Origin: Phytopythium helicoides
Lineage: Eukaryota; Oomycota; Peronosporomycetes; Pythiales; Pythiaceae
Assembly (NCBI GenBank): GCA_024867545.1
Contig: JANFNE010000032.1
Coordinates: 62,001-126,000, forward strand
Direction of reading: 5' to 3'
Length of the DNA: 64,000 nt
Part shown: piece after piece, positions 35,441-61,512 of the stretch
How positions within the stretch are numbered: position 1 is the stretch's first letter
Layout: each line of letters starts with the position of its first letter
Notes under the pieces: generated by a model
Told to the model about the DNA's origin: nothing
Seen by the model: the letters and a program-made list of their open reading frames with translations, nothing else
The model's database searches: none
Made by a program: the position numbers and the translations under genes

Positions 35441-38243
35441 GACGGCCCACGCACGTGAGCGAGGTCCTTGGTGGCCGAGCTCTCGCGCGCGGGTCGACAG
35501 GACGGGACCTCGAGCGACGCCGAGGCAAGCCAAGTGCAGACGGCGACGGCCCACGCACGTGAGCGAGGTCCTTGGTGGCCGAGCTCTCGCGCGCGGGTCG
35601 ACAGGACGGGACCTCGAGCGACGCCAAGGCAAGCCAAGTGCAGATGGCGACGGCCCACGCACGTGAGCGAGGTCCTTGGTGGCCGAGCTCTCGCGCGCGG
35701 GTCGACAGGACGGGACCCCAAGCGACGCCGAGGCAAGCCAAGTGCAGATGGCGACGGCCCACGCACGTGAGCGAGGTCCTTGGTGGCCGAGCTCTCGCGC
35801 GCGGGTCGACAGGACGGGACCTCGAGCGACGCCGAGGCAAGCCAAGTGCAGATGGCGACGGCCCACGCACGTGAGCGAGGTCCTTGGTGGCCGAGCTCTC
35901 GCGCGCGGGTCGACAGGACGGGACCCCAAGCGACGCCGAGGCAAGCCAAGTGCAGATGGCGACGGCCCACGCACGTGAGCGAGGTCCTTGGTGGCCGAGC
36001 TCTCGCGCGCGGGTCGACAGGACGGGACCCCAAGCGACGCCGAGGCAAGCCAAGTGCAGATGGCGACGGCCCACGCACGTGAGCGAGGTCCTTGGTGGCC
36101 GAGCTCTCGCGCGCGGGTCGACAGGACGGGACCTCGAGCGACGCCGAGGCAAGCCAAGTGCAGACGGCGACGGCCCACGCACGTGAGCGAGGTCCTTGGT
36201 GGCCGAGCTCTCGCGCGCGGGTCGACAGGACGGGACCTCGAGCGACGCCAAGGCAAGCCAAGTGCAGATGGCGACGGCCCACGCACGTGAGCGAGGTCCT
36301 TGGTGGCCGAGCTCTCGCGCGCGGGTCGACAGGACGGGACCTCGAGCGACGCCGAGGCAAGCCAAGTGCAGATGGCGACGGCCCACGCACGTGAGCGAGG
36401 TCCTTGGTGGCCGAGCTCTCGCGCGCGGGTCGACAGGACGGGACCCCAAGCGACGCCGAGGCAAGCCAAGTGCAGATGGCGACGGCCCACGCACGTGAGC
36501 GAGGTCCTTGGTGGCCGAGCTCTCGCGCGCGGGTCGACAGGACGGGACCCCAAGCGACGCCGAGGCAAGCCAAGTGCAGATGGCGACGGCCCACGCACGT
36601 GAGCGAGGTCCTTGGTGGCCGAGCTCTCGCGCGCGGGTCGACAGGACGGGACCTCGAGCGACGCCGAGGCAAGCCAAGTGCAGATGGCGACGGCCCACGC
36701 ACGTGAGCGAGGTCCTTGGTGGCCGAGCTCTCGCGCGCGGGTCGACAGGACGGGACCCCAAGCGACGCCGAGGCAAGCCAAGTGCAGATGGCGACGGCCC
36801 ACGCACGTGAGCGAGGTCCTTGGTGGCCGAGCTCTCGCGCGCGGGTCGACAGGACGGGACCCCAAGCGACGCCGAGGCAAGCCAAGTGCAGATGGCGACG
36901 GCCCACGCACGTGAGCGAGGTCCTTGGTGGCCGAGCTCTCGCGCGCGGGTCGACAGGACGGGACCCCAAGCGACGCCGAGGCAAGCCAAGTGCAGATGGC
37001 GACGGCCCACGCACGTGAGCGAGGTCCTTGGTGGCCGAGCTCTCGCGCGCGGGTCGACAGGACGGGACCTCGAGCGACGCCGAGGCAAGCCAAGTGCAGA
37101 TGGCGACGGCCCACGCACGTGAGCGAGGTCCTTGGTGGCCGAGCTCTCGCGCGCGGGTCGACAGGACGGGACCTCGAGCGACGCCGAGGCAAGCCAAGTG
37201 CAGATGGCGACGGCCCACGCACGTGAGCGAGGTCCTTGGTGGCCGAGCTCTCGCGCGCGGGTCGACAGGACGGGACCCCAAGCGACGCCGAGGCAAGCCA
37301 AGTGCAGATGGCGACGGCCCACGCACGTGAGCGAGGTCCTTGGTGGCCGAGCTCTCGCGCGCGGGTCGACAGGACGGGACCTCGAGCGACGCCGAGGCAA
37401 GCCAAGTGCAGATGGCGACGGCCCACGCACGTGAGCGAGGTCCTTGGTGGCCGAGCTCTCGCGCGCGGGTCGACAGGACGGGACCTCGAGCGACGCCGAG
37501 GCAAGCCAAGTGCAGATGGCGACGGCCCACGCACGTGAGCGAGGTCCTTGGTGGCCGAGCTCTCGCGCGCGGGTCGACAGGACGGGACCCCAAGCGACGC
37601 CGAGGCAAGCCAAGTGCAGATGGCGACGGCCCACGCACGTGAGCGAGGTCCTTGGTGGCCGAGCTCTCGCGCGCGGGTCGACAGGACGGGACCCCAAGCG
37701 ACGCCGAGGCAAGCCAAGTGCAGATGGCGACGGCCCACGCACGTGAGCGAGGTCCTTGGTGGCCGAGCTCTCGCGCGCGGGTCGACAGGACGGGACCCCA
37801 AGCGACGCCGAGGCAAGCCAAGTGCAGATGGCGACGGCCCACGCACGTGAGCGAGGTCCTTGGTGGCCGAGCTCTCGCGCGCGGGTCGACAGTACGAGAC
37901 CTCCTCAAGCGACGCCAAGGCAAGCCAAGTGCAGATGGCGACGGCCCACGCACGTGAGCGAGGTCCTTGGTGGCCGAGCTCTCGCGCGCGGGTCGACAGG
38001 ACGGGACCTCGAGCGACGCCGAGGCAAGCCAAGTGCAGATGGCGACGGCCCACGCACGTGAGCGAGGTCCTTGGTGGCCGAGCTCTCGCGCGCGGGTCGA
38101 CAGGACGGGACCCCAAGCGACGCCGAGGCAAGCCAAGTGCAGATGGCGACGGCCCACGCACGTGAGCGAGGTCCTTGGTGGCCGAGCTCTCGCGCGCGGG
38201 TCGACAGTACGAGACCTCCTCAAGCGACGCGAAGCCAAAGCTG
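35441..38243. repeat. Satellite A array, left (104-bp unit x 27)
   Basis: Near-identical 104-bp units with a strict period, diagnosed by GAGGTCCTTGG and CAGGACGGGACC. Variable sites are few (CTCGAG or CCCAAG after GGGAC, CCGAGG or CCAAGG, GATGG or GACGG). Two units near the right end (37.86 and 38.18 kb) carry the B-type string AGTACGAGACCTCC, which makes the first of them 107 bp. Confidence 0.95.
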
Positions 38244-38422
38244 GAGCCGAGACGCAGCGCCCGCGCTTCCGCTGCTCGTCGCCTCTCCTGGCGGCACAGC
38301 GGTGGTCGCGCCGGGCCGCGCTGCGTTGTCGCTCTCGCTGTTGCTGTCGCTTGGTGTTGTTGTTGTTTCTGGTGATGGGATCCTTCGCGCGTTGAAGAGG
38401 AGGTTGGAGGTCGTGTCGGATC
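38244..38422. repeat. 3' fragment of spacer module C
   Basis: About 180 bp at the A-to-B boundary that match the last part of the C modules (from GAGCCGAGACGCAGCGCCC to GTCGTGTCGGATCTGGCG), with small differences such as GGGATCCTTCGCGCG. It shows that a C module end borders the B array here too. Confidence 0.85.
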
Positions 38423-40326
38423 TGGCGACGGCGACGGCGACGGCGATGGCCACGGCCCACGCACGTGAGCGAGGTCGTTGGTGGCCGAGCTCTCGCGCGC
38501 GGGTCGACAGTACGAGACCTCCTCAAGCGACGCGAAGCCAAGGCAAGGCGAATCCAGACGGCGACGGCGACGGCGATGGCCACGGCCCACGCACGTGAGC
38601 GAGGTCGTTGGTGGCCGAGCTCTCGCGCGCGGGTCGACAGTACGAGACCTCCTCGAGCGACGCGAAGCCAAGGCAAAGCGAATCCAGACGGCGATGGCGA
38701 ATCCAGACGGCGACGGCGATGGCGACGGCGACGGCGATGGCCACGGCCCACGCACGTGAGCGAGGTCGTTGGTGGCCGAGCTCTCGCGCGCGGGTCGACA
38801 GTACGAGACCTCCTCAAGCGACACGAAGCCAAGGCAAGGCGAATCCAGACGGCGACGGCGACGGCGACGGCGATGGCCACGGCCCACGCACGTGAGCGAG
38901 GTCGTTGGTGGCCGAGCTCTCGCGCGCGGGTCGACAGTACGAGACCTCCTCGAGCGACGCGAAGCCAAGGCAAAGCGAATCCAGACGGCGATGGCGAATC
39001 CAGACGGCGACGGCGATGGCGACGGCGACGGCGATGGCCACGGCCCACGCACGTGAGCGAGGTCGTTGGTGGCCGAGCTCTCGCGCGCGGGTCGACAGTA
39101 CGAGACCTCCTCAAGCGACACGAAGCCAAGGCAAGGCGAATCCAGACGGCGACGGCGACGGCGACGGCGATGGCCACGGCCCACGCACGTGAGCGAGGTC
39201 GTTGGTGGCCGAGCTCTCGCGCGCGGGTCGACAGTACGAGACCTCCTCGAGCGACGCGAAGCCAAGGCAAAGCGAATCCAGACGGCGATGGCGAATCCAG
39301 ACGGCGACGGCGATGGCGACGGCGACGGCGATGGCCACGGCCCACGCACGTGAGCGAGGTCGTTGGTGGCCGAGCTCTCGCGCGCGGGTCGACAGTACGA
39401 GACCTCCTCAAGCGACACGAAGCCAAGGCAAGGCGAATCCAGACGGCGACGGCGACGGCGACGGCGATGGCCACGGCCCACGCACGTGAGCGAGGTCGTT
39501 GGTGGCCGAGCTCTCGCGCGCGGGTCGACAGTACGAGACCTCCTCGAGCGACGCGAAGCCAAGGCAAAGCGAATCCAGACGGCGATGGCGAATCCAGACG
39601 GCGACGGCGATGGCGACGGCGACGGCGATGGCCACGGCCCACGCACGTGAGCGAGGTCGTTGGTGGCCGAGCTCTCGCGCGCGGGTCGACAGTACGAGAC
39701 CTCCTCGAGCGACGCGAAGCCAAGGCAAGGCGAATCCAGACGGTGACGGCGACGGCGAATCCAGACGGCGACGGCGATGGCGACGGCGATGGCCACGGCC
39801 CACGCACGTGAGCGAGGTCGTTGGTGGCCGAGCTCTCGCGCGCGGGTCGACAGTACGAGACCTCCTCGAGCGACGCGAAGCCAAGGCAAGGCGAATCCAG
39901 ACGGCGACGGCGACGGCGACGGCGATGGCCACGGCCCACGCACGTGAGCGAGGTCGTTGGTGGCCGAGCTCTCGCGCGCGGGTCGACAGTACGAGACCTC
40001 CTCGAGCGACGCGAAGCCAAGGCAAGGCGAATCCAGACGGCGACGGAGACGGCGATGGCCACGGCCCACGCACGTGAGCGAGGTCGTTGGTGGCCGAGCT
40101 CTCGCGCGCGGGTCGACAGTACGAGACCTCCTCGAGCGACGCGAAGCCAAGGCAAGGCGAATCCAGACGGCGATGGCGAATCCAGACGGCGACGGCGATG
40201 GCCACGGCGACGGCGATGGCCACGGCCCACGCACGTGAGCGAGGTCGTTGGTGGCCGAGCTCTCGCGCGCGGGTCGACAGTACGAGACCTCCTCGAGCGA
40301 CGCGAAGCCAAGGCAAAGCGAATCCA

Positions 40327-40358
<32 letters not shown>

Positions 40359-40651
40359 TGGCCACGGCCCACGCACGTGAGCGAGGTCGTTGGTGGCCGA
40401 GCTCTCGCGCGCGGGTCGACAGTACGAGACCTCCTCGAGCGACGCGAAGCCAAGGCAAGGCGAATCCAGACGGCGACGGCGACGGCGACGGCGATGGCCA
40501 CGGCCCACGCACGTGAGCGAGGTCGTTGGTGGCCGAGCTCTCGCGCGCGGGTCGACAGTACGAGACCTCCTCAAGCGACGCGAAGCCAAGGCAAGGCGAA
40601 TCCAGACGGCGACGGCGACGGCGATGGCCACGGCCCACGCACGTGAGCGAG
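38423..40651. repeat. Satellite B array 1, with a 297-bp higher-order repeat
   Basis: About 16 units, diagnosed by GAGGTCGTTGG, AGTACGAGACCTCCT and GCGAATCCAGACGGCGAC. Between about 38,608 and 39,500 a 161-bp and a 136-bp unit alternate three times, i.e. a 297-bp higher-order repeat. The 161-bp units contain a second GCGAATCCAGACGG segment. Confidence 0.93.
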
Positions 40652-42199
40652 GTGAAGTGGTAGCTGCTGATTGATCCTACCAGTCGATCCGACCAAGTCG
40701 AAGCTACCTCTCGTCCCGACCAAGTCGAAGCTGCCGACCGATCCAACCAAGTCGAAGCTGCTGGTCGTTCTGATCAAGCCCAAGCCGCCGATCAATCCAA
40801 CCATGTCGAAGCTGCCGGTCGATCGGATGAAGTCGAAGCGGCCAGACGAGCCCAAAGGACACCCCTCCAAGTCCAATCCTGCTGACAAACTCGCTCGTCA
40901 CCGCTCTTGGCAGAACAGCGACGGTCGCGCCAACTCAACACAGCAGTTTTCACGAGAGACGCACAAGTCACACATGCCACGCAATGCCAACGCCACGACG
41001 GAAGACGGAGAATGGAAGACTGAGGACGGAAATGGTGCTCCCGAGAACGCTGCATACCCGACGTGGTGTGGAGGAAACCGTAGACACCGTATGTTGCGAG
41101 TTGCGAGTTGCGAGCTCGGAGGCGTCAACTGCAGTGGAGCAGCTCACTACAGTAGAGGTGGAATTGTATTTTGGTGTGACTGGACTCGGTCAGTACACAC
41201 CCGCCTACAGCATGAAGTCGGCGTGGTGACGTGCGCCAAGCAGCCCCGAACGTGATGCTTTCACCAAACTACTGCATCCTGACACGCGAAGATGTCCATC
41301 GATTCGTGTAGTGGTCGTCCCTCTACCGCGATGGAGTACGCGACCTGGTGCACGAGACTGATCCAAGCAAGAACAGCTCCCCCTTTCACGGTCAACAAAC
41401 AGAGTGCCGAAGGAGAGCTCGGACGGAGTCGAGCTCGAGACCCACCCCACGCTTTACCCACCCACGTGGATGCAGTCCAGAGTGTGCAGGTGCGTGGCGT
41501 TGCGTTGCGGCGATGGATTGGCGGGTAGCTGGACTCCACATAACGGATTCGGATGGATTGGCGGATCGGTGGATCGGTGGATCGGTGGATCGCTGGATCG
41601 GTGGCTTGACCAAAATGCTTCAACTTGTCAACTTGGATGGACGTATAGTGTACGCCTCCGATGTCGTGGTGTTGGATACAGTATGGCGAAAAAGATACAA
41701 GGACACACAGCCGGATACCATCCGTATCCAACCGTGCACTATACACCTCCTTCTTCCCACTTTTCAAAAACGCCGGCCACGACGCAGGAGATAGTCGCCG
41801 ACCGTCAGCGACTCGAGGCGCGGGCATGGGCGTGATGGAGAGGCGCAGGGTGTAAAGCGAGAGTGTTGGCGGGTGAGGAAGTGTCGGCTGGCAGACCTCT
41901 GAGGCGCAGGAGCGGGCTGCGGAGCCCACACTCTGCGGTGGCCCACGCGGTGGCTCGACCTCGACCTCGACCTCGACCTCCAGCTCAAGCTCAAGCTCAA
42001 GCTACAAGCTCTAGCTCGAGCCGAGACGCAGCGCCCGCGCTTCCGCTGCTCGTCGCCTCTCTTGGCGGCACAGCGGTGGTCGCGCCGGGCCGCGCTGCGT
42101 TGTCGCTCTCACTGTTGCTGTCGCTTGGTGTTGTTGTTGTTTCTGGTGATGGGGTCCGTCGTGGCTTGAAGAGGAGGTTGGAGGTCGTGTCGGATCTGG
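40652..42199. repeat. Spacer module C1
   Basis: 1.55-kb segment starting GTGAAGTGGTAGCTGCTGATT. In order it holds a 27-bp tandem repeat (six diverged copies), a unique part, an 8-bp repeat GGATCGGT (five units near 41,562-41,603), CGACCT and AGCTCA hexamer runs (about 41,956-42,003), and the conserved 3' end. Open frames exist on both strands (194 codons plus, 222 codons minus), and they persist in the copies because the copies are nearly identical. No known domain. Confidence 0.9.
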
Positions 42200-42239
42200 C
42201 GACGGCGACGGCGACGGCGATGGCCACGGCCCACGCACG

Positions 42240-42874
42240 TGAGCGAGGTCGTTGGTGGCCGAGCTCTCGCGCGCGGGTCGACAGTACGAGACCTCCTCAA
42301 GCGACGCGAAGCCAAGGCAAGGCGAATCCAGACGGCGACGGCGACGGCGACGGCGATGGCCACGGCCCACGCACGTGAGCGAGGTCGTTGGTGGCCGAGC
42401 TCTCGCGCGCGGGTCGACAGTACGAGACCTCCTCGAGCGACGCGAAGCCAAGGCAAGGCGAATCCAGACGGCGACGGCGACGGCGACGGCGATGACCACG
42501 GCCCACGCACGTGAGCGAGGTCGTTGGTGGCCGAGCTCTCGCGCGCGGGTCGACAGTACGAGACCTCCTCGAGCGACGCGAAGCCAAGGCAAGGCGAATC
42601 CAGACGGCGACGGCGATGGCCACGGCGATGACCACGGCCCACGCACGTGAGCGAGGTCGTTGGTGGCCGAGCTCTCGCGCGCGGGTCGACAGTACGAGAC
42701 CTCCTCGAGCGACGCGAAGCCAAGGCAAGGCGAATCCAGACGGCGACGGCGATGGCCACGGCGATGACCACGGCCCACGCACGTGAGCGAGGTCGTTGGT
42801 GGCCGAGCTCTCGCGCGCGGGTCGACAGTACGAGACCTCCTCAAGCGACGCGAAGCCAAGGCAAGGCGAATCCA

Positions 42875-42906
<32 letters not shown>

Positions 42907-43016
42907 TGGCCACGGCCCACGCACGTGAGCGAGGTCGTTGGTGGCCGAGCTCTCGCGCGCGGGTCGACAGTACGAGACCTCCTCAAGCGACGCGAAGCCA
43001 AGGCAAGGCGAATCCA

Positions 43017-43054
<38 letters not shown>

Positions 43055-43164
43055 TGGCCACGGCCCACGCACGTGAGCGAGGTCGTTGGTGGCCGAGCTC
43101 TCGCGCGCGGGTCGACAGTACGAGACCTCCTCAAGCGACGCGAAGCCAAGGCAAGGCGAATCCA

Positions 43165-43202
<38 letters not shown>

Positions 43203-43999
43203 TGGCCACGGCCCACGCACGTGAGCGAGGTCGTTGGTGGCCGAGCTCTCGCGCGCGGGTCGACAGTACGAGACCTCCTCGAGCGACGCGAAGCCAAGGC
43301 AAGGCGAATCCAGACGGTGACGGCGACGGCGAATCCAGACGGCGACGGCGATGGCGACGGCGATGGCCACGGCCCACGCACGTGAGCGAGGTCGTTGGTG
43401 GCCGAGCTCTCGCGCGCGGGTCGACAGTACGAGACCTCCTCGAGCGACGCGAAGCCAAGGCAAGGCGAATCCAGACGGCGACGGCGACGGCGACGGCGAT
43501 GGCCACGGCCCACGCACGTGAGCGAGGTCGTTGGTGGCCGAGCTCTCGCGCGCGGGTCGACAGTACGAGACCTCCTCAAGCGACGCGAAGCCAAGGCAAG
43601 GCGAATCCAGACGGCGATGGCCACGGCCACGGCGATGGCCACGGCCCACGCACGTGAGCGAGGTCGTTGGTGGCCGAGCTCTCGCGCGCGGGTCGACAGT
43701 ACGAGACCTCCTCGAGCGACGCGAAGCCAAGGCAAGGCGAATCCAGACGGCGACGGCGATGGCCACGGCGATGACCACGGCCCACGCACGTGAGCGAGGT
43801 CGTTGGTGGCCGAGCTCTCGCGCAAGGGTCGACAGTACGAGACCTCCTCAAGCGACGCGAAGCCAAGGCAAGGCGAATCCAGACGGCGACGGCGATGGCC
43901 CACGCACGTGAGCGAGGTCGTTGGTGGCCGAGCTCTCGCGCGCGGGTCGACAGTACGAGACCTCCTCGAGCGACGCGAAGCCAAGGCAAGGCGAATCCA

Positions 44000-44031
<32 letters not shown>

Positions 44032-44957
44032 TGGCCACGGCCCACGCACGTGAGCGAGGTCGTTGGTGGCCGAGCTCTCGCGCGCGGGTCGACAGTACGA
44101 GACCTCCTCGAGCGACGCGAAGCCAAGGCAAGGCGAATCCAGACGGCGACGGCGACGGAGATGGCGATGGCCACGGCCCACGCACGTGAGCGAGGTCGTT
44201 GGTGGCCGAGCTCTCGCGCGCGGGTCGACAGTACGAGACCTCCTCAAGCGACGCGAAGCCAAGGCAAGGCGAATCCAGACGGCGACGGCGATGGCCACGG
44301 CGATGGCCACGGCCCACGCACGTGAGCGAGGTCGTTGGTGGCCGAGCTCTCGCGCGCGGGTCGACAGTACGAGACCTCCTCAAGCGACGCGAAGCCAAGG
44401 CAAGGCGAATCCAGACGGCGACGGCGACGGCGACGGCGATGGCCACGGCCCACGCACGTGAGCGAGGTCGTTGGTGGCCGAGCTCTCGCGCGCGGGTCGA
44501 CAGTACGAGACCTCCTCGAGCGACGCGAAGCCAAGGCAAGGCGAATCCAGACGGCGACGGCGACGGCGACGGCGATGACCACGGCCCACGCACGTGAGCG
44601 AGGTCGTTGGTGGCCGAGCTCTCGCGCGCGGGTCGACAGTACGAGACCTCCTCGAGCGACGCGAAGCCAAGGCAAGGCGAATCCAGACGGCGACGGCGAT
44701 GGCCACGGCGATGACCACGGCCCACGCACGTGAGCGAGGTCGTTGGTGGCCGAGCTCTCGCGCGCGGGTCGACAGTACGAGACCTCCTCGAGCGACGCGA
44801 AGCCAAGGCAAGGCGAATCCAGACGGCGACGGCGATGGCCACGGCGATGACCACGGCCCACGCACGTGAGCGAGGTCGTTGGTGGCCGAGCTCTCGCGCG
44901 CGGGTCGACAGTACGAGACCTCCTCAAGCGACGCGAAGCCAAGGCAAGGCGAATCCA

Positions 44958-44989
<32 letters not shown>

Positions 44990-45099
44990 TGGCCACGGCC
45001 CACGCACGTGAGCGAGGTCGTTGGTGGCCGAGCTCTCGCGCGCGGGTCGACAGTACGAGACCTCCTCAAGCGACGCGAAGCCAAGGCAAGGCGAATCCA

Positions 45100-45137
<38 letters not shown>

Positions 45138-45247
45138 TGGCCACGGCCCACGCACGTGAGCGAGGTCGTTGGTGGCCGAGCTCTCGCGCGCGGGTCGACA
45201 GTACGAGACCTCCTCAAGCGACGCGAAGCCAAGGCAAGGCGAATCCA

Positions 45248-45285
<38 letters not shown>

Positions 45286-45395
45286 TGGCCACGGCCCACG
45301 CACGTGAGCGAGGTCGTTGGTGGCCGAGCTCTCGCGCGCGGGTCGACAGTACGAGACCTCCTCAAGCGACGCGAAGCCAAGGCAAGGCGAATCCA

Positions 45396-45433
<38 letters not shown>

Positions 45434-45934
45434 TGGCCACGGCCCACGCACGTGAGCGAGGTCGTTGGTGGCCGAGCTCTCGCGCGCGGGTCGACAGTAC
45501 GAGACCTCCTCAAGCGACGCGAAGCCAAGGCAAGGCGAATCCAGACGGCGACGGCCACGGCCACGGCGATGGCCACGGCCCACGCACGTGAGCGAGGTCG
45601 TTGGTGGCCGAGCTCTCGCGCGCGGGTCGACAGTACGAGACCTCCTCGAGCGACGCGAAGCCAAGGCAAGGCGAATCCAGACGGCGACGGCGATGGCCAC
45701 GGCGATGACCACGGCCCACGCACGTGAGCGAGGTCGTTGGTGGCCGAGCTCTCGCGCAAGGGTCGACAGTACGAGACCTCCTCAAGCGACGCGAAGCCAA
45801 GGCAAGGCGAATCCAGACGGCGACGGCGATGGCCCACGCACGTGAGCGAGGTCGTTGGTGGCCGAGCTCTCGCGCGCGGGTCGACAGTACGAGACCTCCT
45901 CAAGCGACGCGAAGCCAAGGCAAGGCGAATCCAG

Positions 45935-45967
<33 letters not shown>

Positions 45968-46270
45968 GCGATGGCCACGGCCCACGCACGTGAGCGAGGT
46001 CGTTGGTGGCCGAGCTCTCGCGCGCGGGTCGACAGTACGAGACCTCCTCGAGCGACGCGAAGCCAAGGCAAGGCGAATCCAGACGGCGACGGCGACGGAG
46101 ATGGCGATGGCCACGGCCCACGCACGTGAGCGAGGTCGTTGGTGGCCGAGCTCTCGCGCGCGGGTCGACAGTACGAGACCTCCTCAAGCGACGCGAAGCC
46201 AAGGCAAGGCGAATCCAGACGGCGACGGCGATGGCCACGGCGATGGCCACGGCCCACGCACGTGAGCGAG
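42240..46270. repeat. About 2-kb higher-order repeat, two copies
   Basis: Unit order and private variants in 42,240-43,230 recur at +2083 bp, and those in 43,531-44,330 at +1934 to +1940 bp. A marker variant, CTCTCGCGCAAGGGTCGAC, occurs only at about 43,816 and 45,750. The two copies differ by one inserted or deleted stretch around 43.23-43.53 kb. Confidence 0.85.
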
Positions 46271-46507
46271 GTCGTTGGTGGCCGAGCTCTCGCGCGCGGG
46301 TCGACAGTACGAGACCTCCTCGAGCGACGCGAAGCCAAGGCAAGGCGAATCCAGTCGGCGACGGCGACGGCGACGGCGATGGCCACGGCGACGGTGATGG
46401 CCACGGCCCACGCACGTGAGCGAGGTCGTTGGTGGCCGAGCTCTCGCGCGCGGGTCGACAGTACGAGACCTCCTCGAGCGACGCGAAGCCAAGGCAAGGC
46501 GAATCCA

Positions 46508-46545
<38 letters not shown>

Positions 46546-46655
46546 TGGCCACGGCCCACGCACGTGAGCGAGGTCGTTGGTGGCCGAGCTCTCGCGCGCG
46601 GGTCGACAGTACGAGACCTCCTCAAGCGACACGAAGCCAAGGCAAGGCGAATCCA

Positions 46656-46687
<32 letters not shown>

Positions 46688-46797
46688 TGGCCACGGCCCA
46701 CGCACGTGAGCGAGGTCGTTGGTGGCCGAGCTCTCGCGCGCGGGTCGACAGTACGAGACCTCCTCAAGCGACGCGAAGCCAAGGCAAGGCGAATCCA

Positions 46798-46829
<32 letters not shown>

Positions 46830-47065: not shown

Positions 47066-47097
<32 letters not shown>

Positions 47098-47207: not shown

Positions 47208-47239
<32 letters not shown>

Positions 47240-47483: not shown

Positions 47484-47525
<42 letters not shown>

Positions 47526-49675: not shown

Positions 49676-49707
<32 letters not shown>

Positions 49708-49935: not shown

Positions 49936-49967
<32 letters not shown>

Positions 49968-50467
49968 TGGCCACGGCCCACGCACGTGAGCGAGGTCGTT
50001 GGTGGCCGAGCTCTCGCGCGCGGGTCGACAGTACGAGACCTCCTCGAGCGACGCGAAGCCAAGGCAAGGCGAATCCAGACGGCGACGGCGACGGAGATGG
50101 CGATGGCCACGGCCCACGCACGTGAGCGAGGTCGTTGGTGGCCGAGCTCTCGCGCGCGGGTCGACAGTACGAGACCTCCTCGAGCGACGCGAAGCCAAGG
50201 CAAGGCGAATCCAGACGGCGACGGCGACGGCGACGGCGATGGCCACGGCCCACGCACGTGAGCGAGGTCGTTGGTGGCCGAGCTCTCGCGCGCGGGTCGA
50301 CAGTACGAGACCTCCTCGAGCGACGCGAAGCCAAGGCAAGGCGAATCCAGACGGCGATGGCCACGGCCCACGCACGTGAGCGAGGTCGTTGGTGGCCGAG
50401 CTCTCGCGCGCGGGTCGACAGTACGAGACCTCCTCGAGCGACGCGAAGCCAAGGCAAGGCGAATCCA

Positions 50468-50499
<32 letters not shown>

Positions 50500-51395
50500 T
50501 GGCCACGGCCCACGCACGTGAGCGAGGTCGTTGGTGGCCGAGCTCTCGCGCGCGGGTCGACAGTACGAGACCTCCTCGAGCGACGCGAAGCCAAGGCAAG
50601 GCGAATCCAGACGGCGACGGCGACGGCGACGGCGATGGCCACGGCCCACGCACGTGAGCGAGGTCGTTGGTGGCCGAGCTCTCGCGCGCGGGTCGACAGT
50701 ACGAGACCTCCTCGAGCGACGCGAAGCCAAGGCAAGGCGAATCCAGACGGCGATGGCCACGGCCCACGCACGTGAGCGAGGTCGTTGGTGGCCGAGCTCT
50801 CGCGCGCGGGTCGACAGTACGAGACCTCCTCGAGCGACGCGAAGCCAAGGCAAGGCGAATCCAGACGGCGACGGCGACGGCTATGGCGACGGCGATGGCC
50901 ACGGCCCACGCACGTGAGCGAGGTCGTTGGTGGCCGAGCTCTCGCGCGCGGGTCGACAGTACGAGACCTCCTCAAGCGACGCGAAGCCAAGGCAAGGCGA
51001 ATCCAGACGGCGATGGCCACGGCCCACGCACGTGAGCGAGGTCGTTGGTGGCCGAGCTCTCGCGCGCGGGTCGACAGTACGAGACCTCCTCAAGCGACGC
51101 GAAGCCAAGGCAAGGCGAATCCAGACGGCGACGGCGATGGCCACAGCGATGGCCACGGCCCACGCACGTGAGCGAGGTCGTTGGTGGCCGAGCTTTCGCG
51201 CGCGGGTCGACAGTACGAGACCTCCTCGAGCGACGCGAAGCCAAGGCAAGGCGAATCCAGACGGCGACGGCGATGGCCACGGCGATGACCACGGCCCACG
51301 CACGTGAGCGAGGTCGTTGGTGGCCGAGCTCTCGCGCGCGGGTCGACAGTACGAGACCTCCTCGAGCGACGCGAAGCCAAGGCAAGGCGAATCCA

Positions 51396-51427
<32 letters not shown>

Positions 51428-51840
51428 TGACCACGGCCCACGCACGTGAGCGAGGTCGTTGGTGGCCGAGCTCTCGCGCGCGGGTCGACAGTACGAGACC
51501 TCCTCGAGCGACGCGAAGCCAAGGCAAGGCGAATCCAGACGGCGACGGCGACGGCGACGGCGATGGCCACGGCCCACGCACGTGAGCGAGGTCGTTGGTG
51601 GCCGAGCTCTCGCGCGCGGGTCGACAGTACGAGACCTCCTCAAGCGACGCGAAGCCAAGGCAAGGCGAATCCAGACGGCGACGGCGATGGCCACGGCGAT
51701 GGCCACGGCCCACGCACGTGAGCGAGGTCGTTGGTGGCCGAGCTCTCGCGCGCGGGTCGACAGTACGAGACCTCCTCAAGCGACGCGAAGCCAAGGCAAG
51801 GCGAATCCAGACGGCGATGGCCACGGCCCACGCACGTGAG
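47690..51840. repeat. Duplicated block about 3.1 kb apart
   Basis: The stretch 47.69-48.76 kb recurs at 50.78-51.84 kb with an offset of 3080-3086 bp. Shared private markers are GGCTATGGCG (47,793 and 50,879) and AGCTTTCGCGCG (near 48,111 and 51,191). Confidence 0.85.
48651..49478. repeat. 414-bp higher-order repeat x 2
   Basis: Unit lengths follow 118-142-154 bp twice; to the right a 118-142 pattern continues (260 bp, from 49,479). Confidence 0.85.
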
Positions 51841-51927
51841 CGAGGTCGTTGGTGGCCGAGCTCTCGCGCGCGGGTCGACAGTACGAGACCTCCTCGAGCG
51901 ACGCGAAGCCAAGGCAAGGCGAATCCA

Positions 51928-51959
<32 letters not shown>

Positions 51960-52069
51960 TGGCCACGGCCCACGCACGTGAGCGAGGTCGTTGGTGGCCG
52001 AGCTCTCGCGCGCGGGTCGACAGTACGAGACCTCCTCGAGCGACGCGAAGCCAAGGCAAGGCGAATCCA

Positions 52070-52101
<32 letters not shown>

Positions 52102-52483
52102 TGGCCACGGCCCACGCACGTGAGCGAGGTCGTTGGTGGCCGAGCTCTCGCGCGCGGGTCGACAGTACGAGACCTCCTCGAGCGACGCGAAGCCAAGGCA
52201 AGGCGAATCCAGACGGCGACGGCGACGGCGACGGCGATGGCCACGGCCCACGCACGTGAGCGAGGTCGTTGGTGGCCGAGCTCTCGCGCGCGGGTCGACA
52301 GTACGAGACCTCCTCGAGCGACGCGAAGCCAAGGCAAGGCGAATCCAGACGGCGACGGCGACGGCGACGGCGATGGCCACGGCCCACGCACGTGAGCGAG
52401 GTCGTTGGTGGCCGAGCTCTCGCGCGCGGGTCGACAGTACGAGACCTCCTCAAGCGACACGAAGCCAAGGCAAGGCGAATCCA

Positions 52484-52515
<32 letters not shown>

Positions 52516-52743
52516 TGGCCACGGCCCACGCACGTGAGCGAGGTCGTTGGTGGCCGAGCTCTCGCGCGCGGGTCGACAGTACGAGACCTCCTCGAGCGAC
52601 GCGAAGCCAAGGCAAGGCGAATCCAGACGGCGATGGCCACGGCCCACGCACGTGAGCGAGGTCGTTGGTGGCCGAGCTCTCGCGCGCGGGTCGACAGTAC
52701 GAGACCTCCTCGAGCGACGCGAAGCCAAGGCAAGGCGAATCCA

Positions 52744-52775
<32 letters not shown>

Positions 52776-53068
52776 TGACCACGGCCCACGCACGTGAGCG
52801 AGGTCGTTGGTGGCCGAGCTCTCGCGCGCGGGTCGACAGTACGAGACCTCCTCGAGCGACGCGAAGCCAAGGCAAGGCGAATCCAGACGGCGACGGCGAC
52901 GGCCACAGCGATGGCCACGGCCCACGCACGTGAGCGAGGTCGTTGGTGGCCGAGCTCTCGCGCGCGGGTCGACAGTACGAGACCTCCTCAAGCGACGCGA
53001 AGCCAAGGCAAGGCGAATCCAGACGGCGACGGCGACGGCGATGGCCACGGCCCACGCACGTGAGCGAG

Positions 53069-54606
53069 GTGAAGTGGTAGCTGCTGATTGATCCTACCAG
53101 TCGATCCGACCAAGTCGAAGCTACCTCTTGTCCCGACCAAGTCCAAGCTGCCGACCGATCCAACCAAGTCGAAGCTGCTGGTCGTTCTGATCAAGCCCAA
53201 GCCGCCGATCAATCCAACCATGTCGAAGCTGCCGGTCGATCGGATGAAGTCGAAGCGGCCAGACGAGCCCAAAGGACACCCCTCCAAGTCCAATCCTGCT
53301 GACAAACTCGCTCGTCACCGCTCTTGGCAGAACAGCGACGGTCGCGCCAACTCAACACAGCAGTTTTTACGAGAGACGCACAAGTCACACATGCCACGCT
53401 ATGCCAACGCCACGACGGAAGACGGAGAATGGAAGACTGAGGACGGAAATGGTGCTCCCGAGAACGCTGCATACCCGACGTGGTGTGGAGGAAACCGTAG
53501 ACACCGTATGTTGCGAGTTGCGAGTTGCGAGCTCGGAGGCGTCAACTGCAGTGGAGCAGCTCACTACAGTAGAGGTGGAATTGTATTTTGGTGTGACTGG
53601 ACTCGGTCAGTACACACCCGCCTACAGCATGAAGTCGGCGTGGTGACGTGCGCCAAGCAGCCCCGAACGTGATGCTTTCACCAAACTACTGCATCCTGAC
53701 ACGCGAAGATGTCCATCGATTCGTGTAGTGGTCGTCCCTCTACCGCGATGGAGTACGCGACCTGGTGCACGAGACTGATCCAAGCAAGAACAGCTCCCCC
53801 TTTCACGGTCAACAAACAGAGTGCCGAAGGAGAGCTCGGACGGAGTCGAGCTCGAGACCCACCCCACGCTTTACCCACCCACGTGGATGCAGTCCAGAGT
53901 GTGCAGGTGCGTGGCGTTGCGTTGCGGCGATGGATTGGCGGGTAGCTGGACTCCACATAACGGATTCGGATGGATTGGCGGATCGGTGGATCGGTGGATC
54001 GGTGGATCGCTGGATCGGTGGCTTGACCAAAATGCTTCAACTTGTCAACTTGGATGGACGTATAGTGTACGCCTCCGATGTCGTGGTGTTGGATACAGTA
54101 TGGCGAAAAAGATACAAGGACACACAGCCGGATACCATCCGTATCCAACCGTGCACTATACACCTCCTTCTTCCCACTTTTCAAAAACGCCGGCCACGAC
54201 GTAGGAGATGGTCGCCGACCGTCAGCGACTCGAGGCGCGGGCATGGGCGTGATGGAGAGGCGCAGGGTGTAAAGCGAGAGTGTTGGCGGGTGAGGAAGTG
54301 TCGGCTGGCAGACCTCTGAGGCGCAGGAGCGGGCTGCGGAGCCCACACTCTGCGGTGGCCCACGCGGTGGCTCGACCTCGACCTCGACCTCGACCTCCAG
54401 CTCAAGCTCAAGCTCAAGCTACAAGCTCTAGCTCGAGCCGAGACGCAGCGCCCGCGCTTCCGCTGCTCGTCGCCTCTCTTGGCGGCACAGCGGTGGTCGC
54501 GCCGGGCCGCGTTGCGTTGTCGCTCTCGCTGTTGCTGTCGCTTGGTGTTGTTGTTGTTTCTGGTGATGGGGTCCGTCGTGGCTTGAAGAGGAGGTTGGCG
54601 GTCGTG
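53069..54606. repeat. Spacer module C2
   Basis: Nearly identical to C1 (offset 12,417 bp) but joined at its 3' end directly to C3, without a B array between. The junction reads GGTCGTGTAGAAGCTG instead of GGTCGTGTCGGATC. Confidence 0.9.
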
Positions 54607-56083
54607 TAGAAGCTGCTGGTTGAATCTGTGACGTCTAAGCTGGCGATCGGTGCTACCAAGTCGAAGCTACCTCTCGTCCCGACCAAGTCGAAGCTGCCGA
54701 CCGATCCAACCAAGTCCAAGGTGCCAGACGAGCCCAAAGGACACCCCTCCAAGTCCAATCCTGCTGACAAACGCAAGCTCGTCACCGCTATTGGCAGAAC
54801 AGCGGCCGTCGCGCCAACTCAACACAGCAGTTTCCACGAGAGACGCACAAGTCACACATGCCACGCTATGCCAACGCCACGACGGAAGACGGAGAATGGA
54901 AGACTGAGGACGGAAATGGTGCTCCCGAGAACGCTGCATACCCGACGTGGTGTGGAGGACACCGTAGACACCGTATGTTGCGAGTTGCGAGTTGCGAGCT
55001 CGGAGGCGTCAACTGCAGTGGAGCAGCTCACTACAGTAGAGGTGGAATTGTGTTTTGGTGTGACTGGACTCGGTCAGTACACACCCGCCCACAGCATGGA
55101 GTCGGCGTGGTGACGTGCGCCAAGCAGCCCCGAACGTGATGCTTTCATCAAACTACTGCATCCTGACACGCGAAGATGTCCATCGATTCGTGTAGTGGTC
55201 GTCCCTCTACCGCGATGGAGTACGCGACCTGGTGCACGAGACTGATCCAAGCAAGAACAGCTCCCCCTTTCACGGTCAACAAACAGAGTGCCGAAGGAGA
55301 GCTCGGACGGAGTCGAGCTCGAGACCCACCCCACGCTTTACCCACCCACGTGGATGCAGTCCAGAGTGTGCAGGTGCGTGGCGTTGCGTTGCGGCGATGG
55401 ATTGGCGGGTAGCTGGACTCCACATAACGGATTCGGATGGATTGGCGGATCGGTGGATCGGTGGATCGGTGGATCGCTGGATCGGTGGCTTGACCAAAAT
55501 GCTTCAACTTGTCAACTTGGATGGACGTATAGTGTACGCCTCCGATGTCGTGGTGTTGGATACAGTATGGCGAAAAAGATACAAGGACACACAGCCGGAT
55601 ACCATCCGTATCCAACCGTGCACTATACACCTCCTTCTTCCCACTTTTCAAAAACGCCGGCCACGACGTAGGAGATGGTCGCCGACCGTCAGCGACTCGA
55701 GGCGCGGGCATGGGCGTGATGGAGAGGCGCAGGGTGTAAAGCGAGAGTGTTGGCGGGTGAGGAAGTGTCGGCTGGCAGACCTCTGAGGCGCAGGAGCGGG
55801 CTGCGGAGCCCACACTCTGCGGTGGCCCACGCGGTGGCTCGACCTCGACCTCGACCTCGACCTCCAGCTCAAGCTCAAGCTCAAGCTACAAGCTCTAGCT
55901 CGAGCCGAGACGCAGCGCCCGCGCTTCCGCTGCTCGTCGCCTCTCCTGGCGGCACAGCGGTGGTCGCGCCGGGCCGCGCTGCGTTGTCGCTCTCGCTGTT
56001 GCTGTCGCCTGGTGTTGTTGTTGTTTCTGGTGATGGGGTCCGTCGTGGCTTGAAGAGGAGGTTGGAGGTCGTGTCGGATCTGG
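54607..56083. repeat. Spacer module C3 (5' part rearranged)
   Basis: Same module, but the first 50 bp differ and the 27-bp tandem region has about three copies instead of six. The open frame is kept because the lost piece is a multiple of 27 bp. The unique part and the 3' end are intact. Confidence 0.9.
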
Positions 56084-56597
56084 CGACGGCGACGGCAACG
56101 GCGATAGCCACGGCCCATGCACGTGAGCGAGGTCGTTGGTGGCCGAGCTCTCGCGCGCGGGTCGACAGTACGAGACCTCCTCGAGCGACACGAAGCCAAG
56201 GCAAGGCGAATCCAGACGGCGACGGCGATGGCCACGGCCCACGCACGTGAGCGAGGTCGTTGGTGGCCGAGCTCTCGCGCGCGGGTCGACAGTACGAGAC
56301 CTCCTCAAGCGACGCGAAGCCAAGGCAAGGGGAATCCAGACGGCGACGGCGAGTCCAGACGGCGACGGCGACGGCGACGGCGATGGCCACGGCCCACGCA
56401 CGTGAGCGAGGTCGTTGTTGGCCGAGCTCTCGCGCGCGGGTCGACAGGACGGGACCCCGAGCGACGCCGAGGCAAGCCAAGTGCAGATGGCGACGGCCCA
56501 CGCACGTGAGCGAGGTCCTTGGTGGCCGAGCTCTCGCGCGCGGGTCGACAGTAGGAGACCTCCTCGAGCGACGCGAAGCCAAGGCAAGGCGAATCCA

Positions 56598-56629
<32 letters not shown>

Positions 56630-57010
56630 TGGCCACGGCGATGGCCACGGCCCACGCACGTGAGCGAGGTCGTTGGTGGCCGAGCTCTCGCGCGCGGGTC
56701 GACAGTACGAGACCTCCTCAAGCGACGCGAAGCCAAGGCAAGGGGAATCCAGACGGCGACGGCGAGTCCAGACGGCGACGGCGACGGCGATGGCGATGGC
56801 CACGGCCCACGCACGTGAGCGAGGTCGTTGGTGGCCGAGCTCTCGCGCGCGGGTCGACAGGACGGGACCCCGAGCGACGCCGAGGCAAGCCAAGTGCAGA
56901 TGGCGACGGCCCACGCACGTGAGCGAGGTCCTTGGTGGCCGAGCTCTCGCGCGCGGGTCGACAGTAGGAGACCTTCTCGAGCGACGCGAAGCCAAGGCAA
57001 GGCGAATCCA

Positions 57011-57042
<32 letters not shown>

Positions 57043-57760
57043 TGGCCACGGCGATGGCCACGGCCCACGCACGTGAGCGAGGTCGTTGGTGGCCGAGCTC
57101 TCGCGCGCGGGTCGACAGTACGAGACCTCCTCAAGCGACGCGAAGCCAAGGCAAGGCGAATCCAGACGGCGACGGCGAGTCCAGACGGCGACGGCGACGG
57201 CGACGGCGATGGCCACGGCCCACGCACGTGAGCGAGGTCGTTGGTGGCCGAGCTCTCGCGCGCGGGTCGACAGTACGAGACCTCCTCGAGCGACGCGAAG
57301 CCAAGGCAAGGCGAATCCAGACGGTGACGGCGACGGAGACGGCGATGGCCACGGCCCACGCACGTGAGCGAGGTCGTTGGTGGCCGAGCTCTCGCGCGCG
57401 GGTCGACAGTACGAGACCTCCTCGAGCGACGCGAAGCCAAGGCAAGGCGAATCCAGACGGCGACGGCGACGGCGACGGCGATGGCCACGGCCACGGCCCA
57501 CGCACGTGAGCGAGGTCGTTGGTGGCCGAGCTCTCGCGCGCGGGTCGACAGTACGAGACCTCCTCGAGCGACACGAAGCCAAGGCAAGGCGAATCCAGAC
57601 GGCGACGGCGACGGCCACGGCGATGGCCACGGCCACGGCCCACGCACGTGAGCGAGGTCGTTGGTGGCCGAGCTCTCGCGCGCGGGTCGACAGGACGGGA
57701 CCTCGAGCGACGCCGAGGCAAGCCAAGTGCAGATGGCGACGGCCCACGCACGTGAGCGAG
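56084..57760. repeat. Mixed A/B array with a 413-bp higher-order repeat
   Basis: About 12 units in which A and B types alternate. A composite of B, A and B-like units repeats at 413 bp (about 56,247 and 56,660). The A units here often begin with the B-type GAGGTCGTTG, i.e. they are hybrids. Confidence 0.88.
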
Positions 57761-59322
57761 GTGAAGTGGTAGCTGCTGATTGATCCTACCAGTCGATCCG
57801 ACCAAGTCGAAGCTACCTCTCGTCCCGACCAAGTCCAAGCTGCCGACCGATCCAACCAAGTCGAAGCTGCTGGTCGTTCTGATCAAGCGCAAGCCGCCGA
57901 TCAATCCAACCATGTCGAAGCTGCCGGTCGATCGGATGAAGTCGAAGCGGCCAGACGAGCCCAAAGGACACCCCTCCAAGTCCAATCCTGCTGACAAACT
58001 CGCTCGTCACCGCTCTTGGCAGAACAGCGACGGTCGCGCCAACTCAACACAGCAGTTTTCACGAGAGACGCACAAGTCACACATGCCACGCTATGCCAAC
58101 GCCACGACGGAAGACGGAGAATGGAAGAGAGAGGACGGAAATTGTGCTCCCGAGAACGCTGCATACCCGACGTGGTGTGGAGGAAACCGTAGACACCGTA
58201 TGTTGCGAGTTGCGAGTTGCGAGCTCGGAGGCGTCAACTGCAGTGGAGCAGCTCACTACAGTAGAGGTGGAATTGTGTTTTGGTGTGACTGGACTCGGTC
58301 AGTACACGGCCGCCCACAGCATGGAGTCGGCGTGGTGACGTGCGCCAAGTAGCCCCGAACGTGATGCTTTCATCAAACTACTGCATCCTGACACGCGAAG
58401 ATGTCCATCGATTCGTGTAGTGGTCGTCCCTCTACCGCGATGGAGTACGCGACCTGGTGCACGAGACTGATCCAAGCAAGAACAGCTCCCCCTTTCACGG
58501 TCAACAAACAGAGTGCCGAAGGAGAGCTCGGACGGAGTCGAGCTCGAGACCCACCCCACGCTTTACCCACCCACGTGGATGCAGTCCAGAGTGTGCAGGT
58601 GCGTGGCGTTGCGTTGCGGCGATGGATTGGCGGGTAGCTGGACTCCACATAACGGATTCGGATGGATTGGCGGATCGGTGGATCGGTGGATCGGTGGATC
58701 GCTGGATCGGTGGCTTGACCAAAATGCTTCAACTTGTCAACTTGGATGGACGTATAGTGTACGCCTCCGATGTCGAGGTGTTGGATACAGTATGGCGAAA
58801 AAGATACAAGGACACACAGCCGGATACCATCCGTATCCAACCGTGCACTATACACCTCCTTCTTCCCACTTTTCAAAAACGCCGGCCACGACGCAGGAGA
58901 TGGTCGCCGACCGTCAGCGACTCGAGGCGCGGGCATGGGCGTGATGGAGAGGCGCAGGGTGTAAAGCGAGAGTGTTGGCGGGTGAGGAAGTGTCGGCTGG
59001 CAGACCTCTGAGGCGCAGGAGCGGGCTGCGGAGCCCACACTCTGCGGTGGCCCACGCGCTGGCTCGACCTCGACCTCGACCTCGACCTCCAGCTCAAGCT
59101 CAAGCTCAAGCTCAAGCTCAAGCTCAAGCTACAAGCTCTAGCTCGAGCCGAGACGCAGCGCCCGCGCTTCCGCTGCTCGTCGCCTCTCCTGGCGGCACAG
59201 CGGTGGTCGCGCCGGGCCGCGCTGCGATGTCGCTCTCGCTGTTGCTGTCGCCTGGTGTTGTTGTTGTTTCTGGTGATGGGGTCCGTCGTGGCTTGAAGAG
59301 GAGGTTGGAGGTCGTGTCGGAT
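57761..59322. repeat. Spacer module C4
   Basis: As C1, with a longer AGCTCA run (about six against three copies near 59,090-59,130) and single-base differences. Ends GTCGTGTCGGATATGGCGAC. Confidence 0.9.
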
Positions 59323-59457
59323 ATGGCGACGGCGACGGCAACGGCGATGACCACGGCCCACGCACGTGAGCGAGGTCGTTGGTGGCCGAGCTCTCGCGCG
59401 CGGGTCGACAGTACGAGACCTCCTCAAGCGACGCGAAGCCAAGGCAAGGCGAATCCA

Positions 59458-59495
<38 letters not shown>

Positions 59496-59605
59496 TGGCC
59501 ACGGCCCACGCACGTGAGCGAGGTCGTTGGTGGCCGAGCTCTCGCGCGCGGGTCGACAGTACGAGACCTCCTCAAGCGACGCGAAGCCAAGGCAAGGCGA
59601 ATCCA

Positions 59606-59637
<32 letters not shown>

Positions 59638-59747
59638 TGGCCACGGCCCACGCACGTGAGCGAGGTCGTTGGTGGCCGAGCTCTCGCGCGCGGGTCGACA
59701 GTACGAGACCTCCTCAAGCGACGCGAAGCCAAGGCAAGGCGAATCCA

Positions 59748-59803
<56 letters not shown>

Positions 59804-60347
59804 TGGCCACGGCCCACGCACGTGAGCGAGGTCGTTGGTGGCCGAGCTCTCGCGCGCGGGTCGACAGTACGAGACCTCCTCAAGCGACGCGAAGCCAAGG
59901 CAAGGCGAATCCAGACGGCGACGGCGACGGCGACGGCGACAGCGATGGCCACGGCCCACGCACGTGAGCGAGGTCGTTGGTGGCCGAGCTCTCGCGCGCG
60001 GGTCGACAGTACGAGACCTCCTCAAGCGTCGCGAAGCCAAGGCAAGGCGAATCCAGACGGCGACGGCGACGGCGACGGCGATGGCCACGGCGATGGCCAC
60101 GGCCCACGCACGTGAGCGAGGTCGTTGGTGGCCGAGCTCTCGCGCGCGGGTCGACAGTACGAGACCTCCTCAAGCGTCGCGAAGCCAAGGCAAGGCGAAT
60201 CCAGACGGCGACACGGCGACGGCGACGGCGATGGCGATGGCAACGGCCCACGCACGTGAGCGAGGTCGTTGGTGGCCGAGCTCTCGCGCGCGGGTCGACA
60301 GTACGAGACCTCCTCAAGCGACGCGAAGCCAAGGCAAGGCGAATCCA

Positions 60348-60385
<38 letters not shown>

Positions 60386-60538
60386 TGGCCACGGCCCACG
60401 CACGTGAGCGAGGTCGTTGGTGGCCGAGCTCTCGCGCGCGGGTCGACAGTACGAGACCTCCTCAAGCGACGCGAAGCCAAGGCAAGGCGAATCCAGACGG
60501 CGACGGCGATGGCCACGGCCCACGCACGTGAGCGAGGT
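59323..60538. repeat. Satellite B array 3
   Basis: About eight B units with up to eight GGCGAC hexamers (59,750-59,802). One unit near 60,210 has a 2-bp slip (GCGACACGGCGAC), breaking the hexamer rule. Confidence 0.92.
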
Positions 60539-61512
60539 CCTTGGTGGCCGAGCTCTCGCGCGCGGGTCGACAGGACGGGACCTCGAGCGACGCCAAGGCA
60601 AGCCAAGTGCAGATGGCGACGGCCCACGCACGTGAGCGAGGTCCTTGGTGGCCGAGCTCTCGCGCGCGGGTCGACAGGACGGGACCTCGAGCGATGCCGA
60701 GGCAAGCCAAGTGCAGACGGCGACGGCCCACGCACGTGAGCGAGGTCGTTGGTGGCCGAGCTCTCGCGCGCGGGTCGACAGGACGGGACCTCGAGCGACG
60801 CCGAGGCAAGCCAAGTGCAGATGGCGACGGCCCACGCACGTGAGCGAGGTCCTTGGTGGCCGAGCTCTCGCGCGCGGGTCGACAGGACGGGACCTCGAGC
60901 GACGCCAAGGCAAGCCAAGTGCAGATGGCGACGGCCCACGCACGTGAGCGAGGTCCTTGGTGGCCGAGCTCTCGCGCGCGGGTCGACAGGACGGGACCCC
61001 GAGCGACGCCAAGGCAAGCCAAGTGCAGATGGCGACGGCCCACGCACGTGGGCGAGGTCCTTGGTGGCCGAGCTCTCGCGCGCGGGTCGACAGGACGGGA
61101 CCTCGAGCGACGCCGAGGCAAGCCAAGTGCAGATGGCGACGGCCCACGCACGTGAGCGAGGTCCTTGGTGGCCGAGCTCTCGCGCGCGGGTCGACAGGAC
61201 GGGACCTCGAGCGACGCCGAGGCAAGCCAAGTGCAGATGGCGACGGCCCACGCACGTGAGCGAGGTCCTTGGTGGCCGAGCTCTCGCGCGCGGGTCGACA
61301 GGACGGGACCTCGAGCGACGCCAAGGCAAGCCAAGTGCAGATGGCGACGGCCCACGCACGTGAGCGAGGTCCTTGGTGGCCGAGCTCTCGCGCGCGGGTC
61401 GACAGGACGGGACCTCGAGCGATGCCGAGGCAAGCCAAGTGCAGACGGCGACGGCCCACGCACGTGAGCGAGGTCGTTGGTGGCCGAGCTCTCGCGCGCG
61501 GGTCGACAGGAC
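60539..61512. repeat. Satellite A array, right (about 9 units)
   Basis: 104-bp units that end in the middle of a unit at GTCGACAGGAC (61,502-61,512). Two units (about 60,740 and 61,465) carry the B-type GAGGTCGTTGG head. Confidence 0.93.

Follow-up and report, generated by a model that had tools for sequence, protein, structure and literature searches.

Two satellites of Phytophthora parasitica come closest, among described systems, to the locus presented here. In PpSat2, intervening sequences of 2.7-3.0 kb interrupt four of the arrays, and the arrays of PpSat1 carry a block of about 1,080 bp on their 5′ side (PMC7290008; statements on published systems refer, here and below, to the parts of the reports that were available). 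Homologs of both have been reported in the genome of Aphanomyces euteiches (PMC8780586). With PpSat1 and PpSat2, a satellite with a 5′ block or with intervening sequence is already known in oomycetes, and a preliminary description of the present locus went too far in stating that it knew of no described oomycete satellite of such a layout. The window studied here comprises 64,000 nucleotides of Phytopythium helicoides (bases 62001-126000 of contig C27, GenBank JANFNE010000032.1, 651,474 bases long, from a genome of 49.06 Mb in 100 contigs) and contains a 26-kb satellite laid out in the manner of PpSat2, i.e. as head-to-tail arrays interrupted by kilobase-scale sequence. The interrupting sequence, module C, includes an element of about 150-177 bp, designated P, which is found upstream of three satellites that are unrelated to each other in sequence (unit lengths of 104-161, about 115-151 and 135 bp), and on their strand. 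As the best explanation we favour a subtelomeric satellite headed by P as a conserved non-coding candidate promoter, and rate the chances of this reading at about even. The P-bearing contigs are called contigs C2, C8, C10, C27, C30, C49, C67 and C84 and are distinct from modules C1 to C4 of the window.

Results

P is the sole part of module C found in other array families (BLAST, E 1e-5). A 145-bp piece of the module matches contigs C2 (seven copies), C49 and C10 at 71-77% identity and there precedes a satellite of different sequence, composed mostly of 115-151-bp units with GAGCAC-type stretches. At the same threshold, the rest of the modules around this piece gave no match between the type on contigs C27, C30 and C67 and that on C2, C10 and C49. 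On contig C84, a third unit of 135 bp, unrelated to the other two, comes after P in 3.7 copies that are 100% identical; this array starts approximately 14 bp past the P homology detected by BLAST, with CGTCAGC as in the last bases of P. Sampled units of the three satellite families yielded no cross-family match (BLAST, E 1e-3). A tandem array lies downstream of P in three of four copies on contig C27, in all seven on contig C2 and in the single copies on C49, C10 and C84. The fourth copy on C27 has another module C downstream instead, and the five copies on C30 are followed by units, by arrays or by partial C copies and then arrays, one of which is interrupted by a retrotransposon. The single P-like copy of contig C8, at 189.7 kb (stretch L044:4699-4848), is 130 kb away from a telomere, has a glutamate-dehydrogenase-like gene downstream of it, and may be either a relic or an ancestral P.

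The P core, GCGAAAWNNMTWCAAGGMCAC, has 21 exact matches in the genome (seven on contig C2, five on C30, four on C27, two on C67 and one each on C8, C10 and C49), none with one mismatch and nine with two. One of the latter, at C84:46461, is a real P, as shown by an upstream flank 75% identical to the module of contig C2 in addition to its own sequence. The other eight, fetched with about 100-200 bp per side, matched P in short words only (best E 0.003), as against E 1e-14 for C84 and E 1e-11 for C8, which served as positive controls. A genome search with the C84 element and its upstream flank retrieved no additional contig.

All eight P-bearing contigs end in (TTTAGGG)n, and P resides 20-133 kb from that end, which is the right one in contigs C2, C8, C10 and C49, the left one in C27, C30, C67 and C84, and the end nearer to P in seven of the eight. 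The array in the window is 97-123 kb from its telomere. Telomere repeats were found on at least 32 contigs, comprising 28 listed, most of them not confirmed at the very end, plus C3, C10, C27 and C49; as the listing pattern missed these four, more telomere-bearing contigs are probable. No P core was present on the 24 other telomere-repeat contigs. By our own estimate, 133 kb from 32-40 ends amounts to about 9-11% of the genome. The probability that all eight P loci lie near telomeres by chance is negligible, and for three independent families it is about 0.001 (likewise our estimate, not computed by a tool). In lying near telomeres at several chromosome ends, 8 of 8 P loci have the position of subtelomeric repeats. 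As a separate observation, contigs C11, C23, C36, C45, C83 and C88 each carry more than one telomere-repeat block, a few kb apart, which suggests interstitial telomere repeats near chromosome ends.

These positions bear on the proposal of the preliminary description that the array is centromere-like. Oomycete centromeres are gene-poor. Surroundings of the centromeric type, transposon-rich and gene-poor, were not found here, since Pfam-supported genes occupy the window from 1 to 35 kb, a GH31 and a choline transporter gene among them at 18-28 kb from the array (the transposon content of the flanks was not measured). A satellite with higher-order repeats would suit a centromere, and so would the Ty1/copia-type element in the array of contig C30: the transposon-rich centromeres of Phytophthora sojae are marked by copia elements named CoLT (PMC7082073), the comparison being made at the copia level. 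The relatives of the array are on telomere-bearing contigs, all P loci keep within the distance from the end given above, and 24 telomere-repeat contigs have no P core. Position and surroundings together make a centromere unlikely, and we regard it as a highly improbable identity for the array.

The bounds of P were set from the match between the two module types before conservation was assessed. Between contigs C27 and C67, 143 of 151 aligned sites agree within P (41665-41815) versus 664 of 756 in the remaining aligned sequence (p 0.015). For a main copy of contig C2 and the diverged first copy, agreement is 122 of 142 sites in P versus 429 of 597 elsewhere (p 0.0004). Thus, P is conserved above the module average, yet it is not the sole conserved stretch.

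The published core promoter motifs of oomycetes comprise FPR (MWTTTNC), INR (YCAYTYY), which is located at the start, and DPEP (SAASMMS), which lies 26 nt downstream on average; INR and DPEP were detected in Pythium ultimum too (PMC3599244). In all eight P sequences scored, an INR-like and a DPEP-like word occupy shared columns with one mismatch in total per sequence. The DPEP-like word follows the A of INR by 18-19 nt, which we term oomycete core-promoter spacing for a start that is predicted only, and a pyrimidine-rich stretch precedes INR. When the columns of the alignment were shuffled (eight P sequences, contig C8, one of nine rows, being omitted and columns with more than two gaps dropped), 0 of 300 shuffles matched the INR/DPEP total and 5 of 300 contained any such pair. 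The predicted starts of the four P copies in the window fall at 41759, 54176, 55643 and 58868. Behind each of them, the frames opened by the first three start codons are 6-14 amino acids long; later start codons within 1.5 kb open frames of up to 239 amino acids inside the arrays.

Two other functions for this DNA were considered and rejected. A structured RNA in P would have only a weak consensus fold, with 21 pairs, two of which show two-sided change, each in one row, and Rfam gave no match. The satellite as a coding sequence would draw on long minus-strand frames, which are stop-free in 5 of 6 sampled units but within the range of dinucleotide shuffles (0.07-0.34 each), and the lengths of the sampled units are not divisible by three. 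One module open reading frame (E up to 10) and one array open reading frame (E 0.001, among 7,994 candidates sharing most words) had no match in protein searches, nor did Pfam give any with three module open reading frames.

The intergenic spacers of ribosomal DNA (rDNA) contain a spacer promoter followed by short GC-rich repeats, repeated in one direction. The present layout is alike: a promoter-like element before GC-rich repeats of about 100 bp resembles the rDNA spacers of animals. The array might accordingly be read as an rDNA spacer or its relic, with P as an RNA polymerase I spacer promoter. Rfam scans of the window and of 16 of the 20 fetched stretches (the C30 array, L026-L029, was not scanned) revealed neither rRNA genes adjoining the array nor any other match, in agreement with the preliminary description, which saw no attached rRNA gene; its likening of the array to an intergenic spacer found nothing in support. 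The P core, moreover, has no further sites in the genome. The absence of Rfam matches renders an rDNA spacer unlikely, and we accord it a very low probability.

The array itself spans window positions 35440-61512 as a head-to-tail, strand-uniform satellite with Tandem Repeats Finder (TRF) scores in the thousands. A 19-bp core word occurs 154 times in it (up to three mismatches) and not once on the opposite strand. Its 149 exact copies define 143 intervals shorter than 200 bp, of which 34 measure 104 bp (unit A), 108 measure 118-166 bp (unit B) and one measures 107 bp; 94 of the 108 B intervals belong to the series 118, 124 and so on to 154 bp, in steps of one 6-bp hexamer. Unit A aligns over its full length with unit B, which extends further by a tail and by a run of GACGGC hexamers. 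The units are about 70% GC. With a homogenised, non-coding unit in the range of about 100-500 bp, repeated head to tail over long stretches, the array is satellite DNA. The blocks and their elements, with the flanks common to the array locus of contig C30, are as follows.

34585-35414, plus strand: left flank common with the contig C30 array locus, 75% identity
35440-38218, plus strand: array A1, 104-bp units, about 27 copies
38219-38424, plus strand: module C remnant, the last ~200 bp (3′ end) of C, without P
38425-40653, plus strand: array B1, 130-161-bp units
40654-42197, plus strand: module C1, full length
41639-41815, plus strand: element P of module C1, core at 41686-41706
41757-41763, plus strand: INR match CCACTTT (YCAYTYY), predicted start A at 41759, DPEP-like 7-mer (one mismatch) from 41778; motif definitions from PMC3599244
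42198-53070, plus strand: array B2, 118-161-bp units, 10.9 kb
53071-54615, plus strand: module C2, full length
54056-54232, plus strand: element P of module C2
54633-56080, plus strand: module C3, 5′-truncated, abutting module C2
55523-55699, plus strand: element P of module C3
56081-57762, plus strand: array B3, mixed 104-bp and 124-155-bp units, 413-bp higher-order period
57763-59324, plus strand: module C4, full length
58748-58924, plus strand: element P of module C4
59325-60507, plus strand: array B4, 124-166-bp units
60508-61512, plus strand: array A2, 104-bp units
61580-62819, plus strand: right flank common with the contig C30 array locus only, 83% identity

Modules C1 to C4 lie on the same strand with pairwise identities of 96.7-99.2%, and array B2 contains seven successive units that are each identical to the unit 15 places away, which is repetition of higher order. 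The A/B satellite with a 1.5-kb module recurring in one orientation, more elaborate than a simple satellite, had been recognised in the preliminary description and is confirmed. Two details need adjustment: A and B do share sequence, over the whole length of A rather than a core of about 57 bp, and the module does recur four times, with one copy truncated at its 5′ end and a fifth present as the remnant at 38219-38424.

A second array of this kind is found on contig C30 at 71.3-107.7 kb, where module C (98% identity) accompanies A/B-like arrays of mostly 124-bp units. Contig C67 contains two copies of module C at about 80% identity, without A/B arrays and parted by 27/54-bp repeats, themselves part of C. 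On both sides, the arrays of contigs C27 and C30 have common flanks (about 0.9 kb left and 1.2 kb right), which identifies them as duplicated loci. A second array so alike on another contig makes a misassembly of the array in the window less probable. The flanks of contigs C10 and C49 are about 93% identical; these contigs may be alleles or duplicated ends, and the independent P loci may therefore number seven. Contigs C30 and C84 have a 159-bp downstream piece in common (77% identity).

Such flanks would also be expected under neutral subtelomeric exchange, in which P is an old segment copied between chromosome ends and homogenised by gene conversion, and the arrays are ordinary products of slippage; some module stretches outside P, equally conserved between C27 and C67, fit this as well. 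It accounts poorly for P as the only part alignable between the two module types, conserved above the module average, and for array families 3′ of P that are mutually unrelated. We consider it an unlikely account of the whole. We regard it as highly improbable that the block of head and array represents a mobile element of the non-autonomous kind, e.g. a Helentron-like one with internal tandem repeats. Elements of this kind are known to combine a conserved head with variable tandem repeats behind it, and past the arrays of C27/C30 and C49, at a distance of about 1 kb or more, there are short matches (45-59 bp, 75-80%). Against this stand the small number of loci, just eight and all on telomere-bearing contigs, the confinement of whole-block repeats within single loci, and the lack of any common end immediately after the arrays of all families, where a Helentron-like 3′ terminus would be conserved.

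Two further features of the C30 array were noted. At C30:93979-98505, a Ty1/copia-type retrotransposon (assigned to copia from its reading frame, not by a family search) is inserted in a module C; its 377-bp long terminal repeats are identical, which indicates recent invasion. At C30:98506-99674 and 104033-105255, deleted module C copies that have lost P form 470-bp tandem repeats of their own, so the head itself can become a satellite.

To the left of the array, the choline-transporter-like protein encoded at window 15479-17755 has 93% identity with an unnamed sequence and 71% with a protein of Pythium brassicae (nom. inval.), which points to a Pythium-like oomycete. Positions 6123-7560 and 30529-31958 hold an inverted pair of copies of one gene (approximately 1.45 kb, 88% identity), facing each other 23 kb apart; the second copy has no Pfam match. 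Immediately left of the array, at 34043-34095, lies a perfect decamer repeat, AATCGGTCAC, in 5.3 copies.

Discussion

We propose that the satellite is organised as repeated head-plus-array blocks with module C as the head, and that P within the head would function as a promoter, its most likely user being RNA polymerase II via the oomycete-type INR and DPEP motifs. It would drive non-coding transcription over the downstream array, and the transcripts would probably feed pathways of small RNA or heterochromatin, in line with what has been proposed for the satellites of Phytophthora. The arrays, and whole head-plus-array blocks, may expand and contract by unequal exchange, and subtelomeric duplication may have spread the loci from one chromosome end to another. 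Small RNAs are produced from PpSat2 as well as from PpSat1 and its 5′ block (PMC7290008), and support for a non-coding satellite RNA here, coming from these, is indirect. If P is a promoter, it offers a handle on satellite small RNAs like those of Phytophthora.

Several observations weigh against P as the promoter of a subtelomeric satellite. Arrays A1 and B1 of the window have no P upstream, modules C2 and C3 adjoin with no array between them, contig C67 has P but no A/B arrays, and contig C8 has P but no array at all. P is oriented away from the telomere on contigs C27, C30, C67 and C84 and toward it on C2, C8, C10 and C49. On contig C84 (72 kb), it lies 46 kb from the telomeric left end and 25.6 kb from the right end, and no telomere repeat was found in the last 200 bases of the latter, nearer end. 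In the comparison of C27 with C67, other 50-bp windows score as high as parts of P (0.90-0.98), namely those at 41121 (0.94), 41321 (0.92) and 42021 (1.00). As to the motifs, the C27/C67 type has an exact INR and one mismatch in DPEP, and the C2/C10/C49 type an exact DPEP and one mismatch in INR. The P of contig C8, omitted from the shuffle test, is without the shared pair, and that of contig C84, a later find, shows a gap where INR aligns, its only pair having one mismatch in each word at 19 nt. TATA-like letters in P would not be expected, no TATA boxes having been detected in Phytophthora (PMC3599244).

The origin of satellite arrays is a long-standing question, and P before three unrelated arrays is a concrete candidate cause. 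Tentatively, and as a possibility that we would sooner expect to fail than to hold, P might be a satellite-seeding element, i.e. a conserved subtelomeric site where transcription or replication starts and which repeatedly triggers tandem amplification of adjacent downstream DNA. If P seeds amplification of whatever lies downstream, unrelated satellites of similar unit length would come to stand behind it on different chromosome ends. The array of contig C84, a young one of 3.7 identical 135-bp copies so close to the detected P homology, is the example that we would cite for seeding.

The same array, which begins near CGTCAGC as at the end of P, would also suit P as a replication start or fork-stalling site, with arrays arising by local re-replication or slippage just downstream. 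Unrelated arrays 3′ of P in three sequence contexts, and the similar unit lengths of unrelated families (104-161 bp), are in line with this. The INR/DPEP pair, in contrast, fits a promoter better, and contig C8 has P without an array. A replication site is unlikely in our view, and the candidate promoter remains the preferred reading of P.

Oomycete chromosome ends seem little described, and in the literature searched, mostly without subscription papers, no case was found of a single conserved element standing in front of three unrelated satellites at some eight chromosome ends. Elsewhere, the X and Y′ elements of yeast are likewise repeated elements specific to chromosome ends (PMC11042809). 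P differs from them in lying 20-133 kb inside, on 8 of at least 32 telomere-repeat contigs, and in mostly heading satellites. Among oomycetes, the AeSat satellites of Aphanomyces euteiches, 41 families with 100-500-bp units identified from long reads, are comparable in unit size, but no head element or chromosomal position is described for them in the available part of the report (PMC8780586). PpSat2, compared by description only, resembles the present satellite in its head-to-tail arrays of GC-rich units of about 143 bp near gene-rich regions. Its GC content is 58.8% versus about 70% here, where the units measure 104-161 bp and the head 1.5 kb, and the available part of the report describes no conserved promoter-like element or telomere linkage (PMC7290008). 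PpSat1 is built from a 337-bp AT-rich unit, in contrast to the units of 104-161 bp and about 70% GC in the window. In its architecture it comes close, with a conserved block directly 5′ of its arrays, with four of five solo repeats plus block adjoining a telomere, and with a copia insertion in one block. The PpSat1 block, however, is homologous to its own satellite, a single family (PMC7290008), whereas P precedes three that are unrelated.

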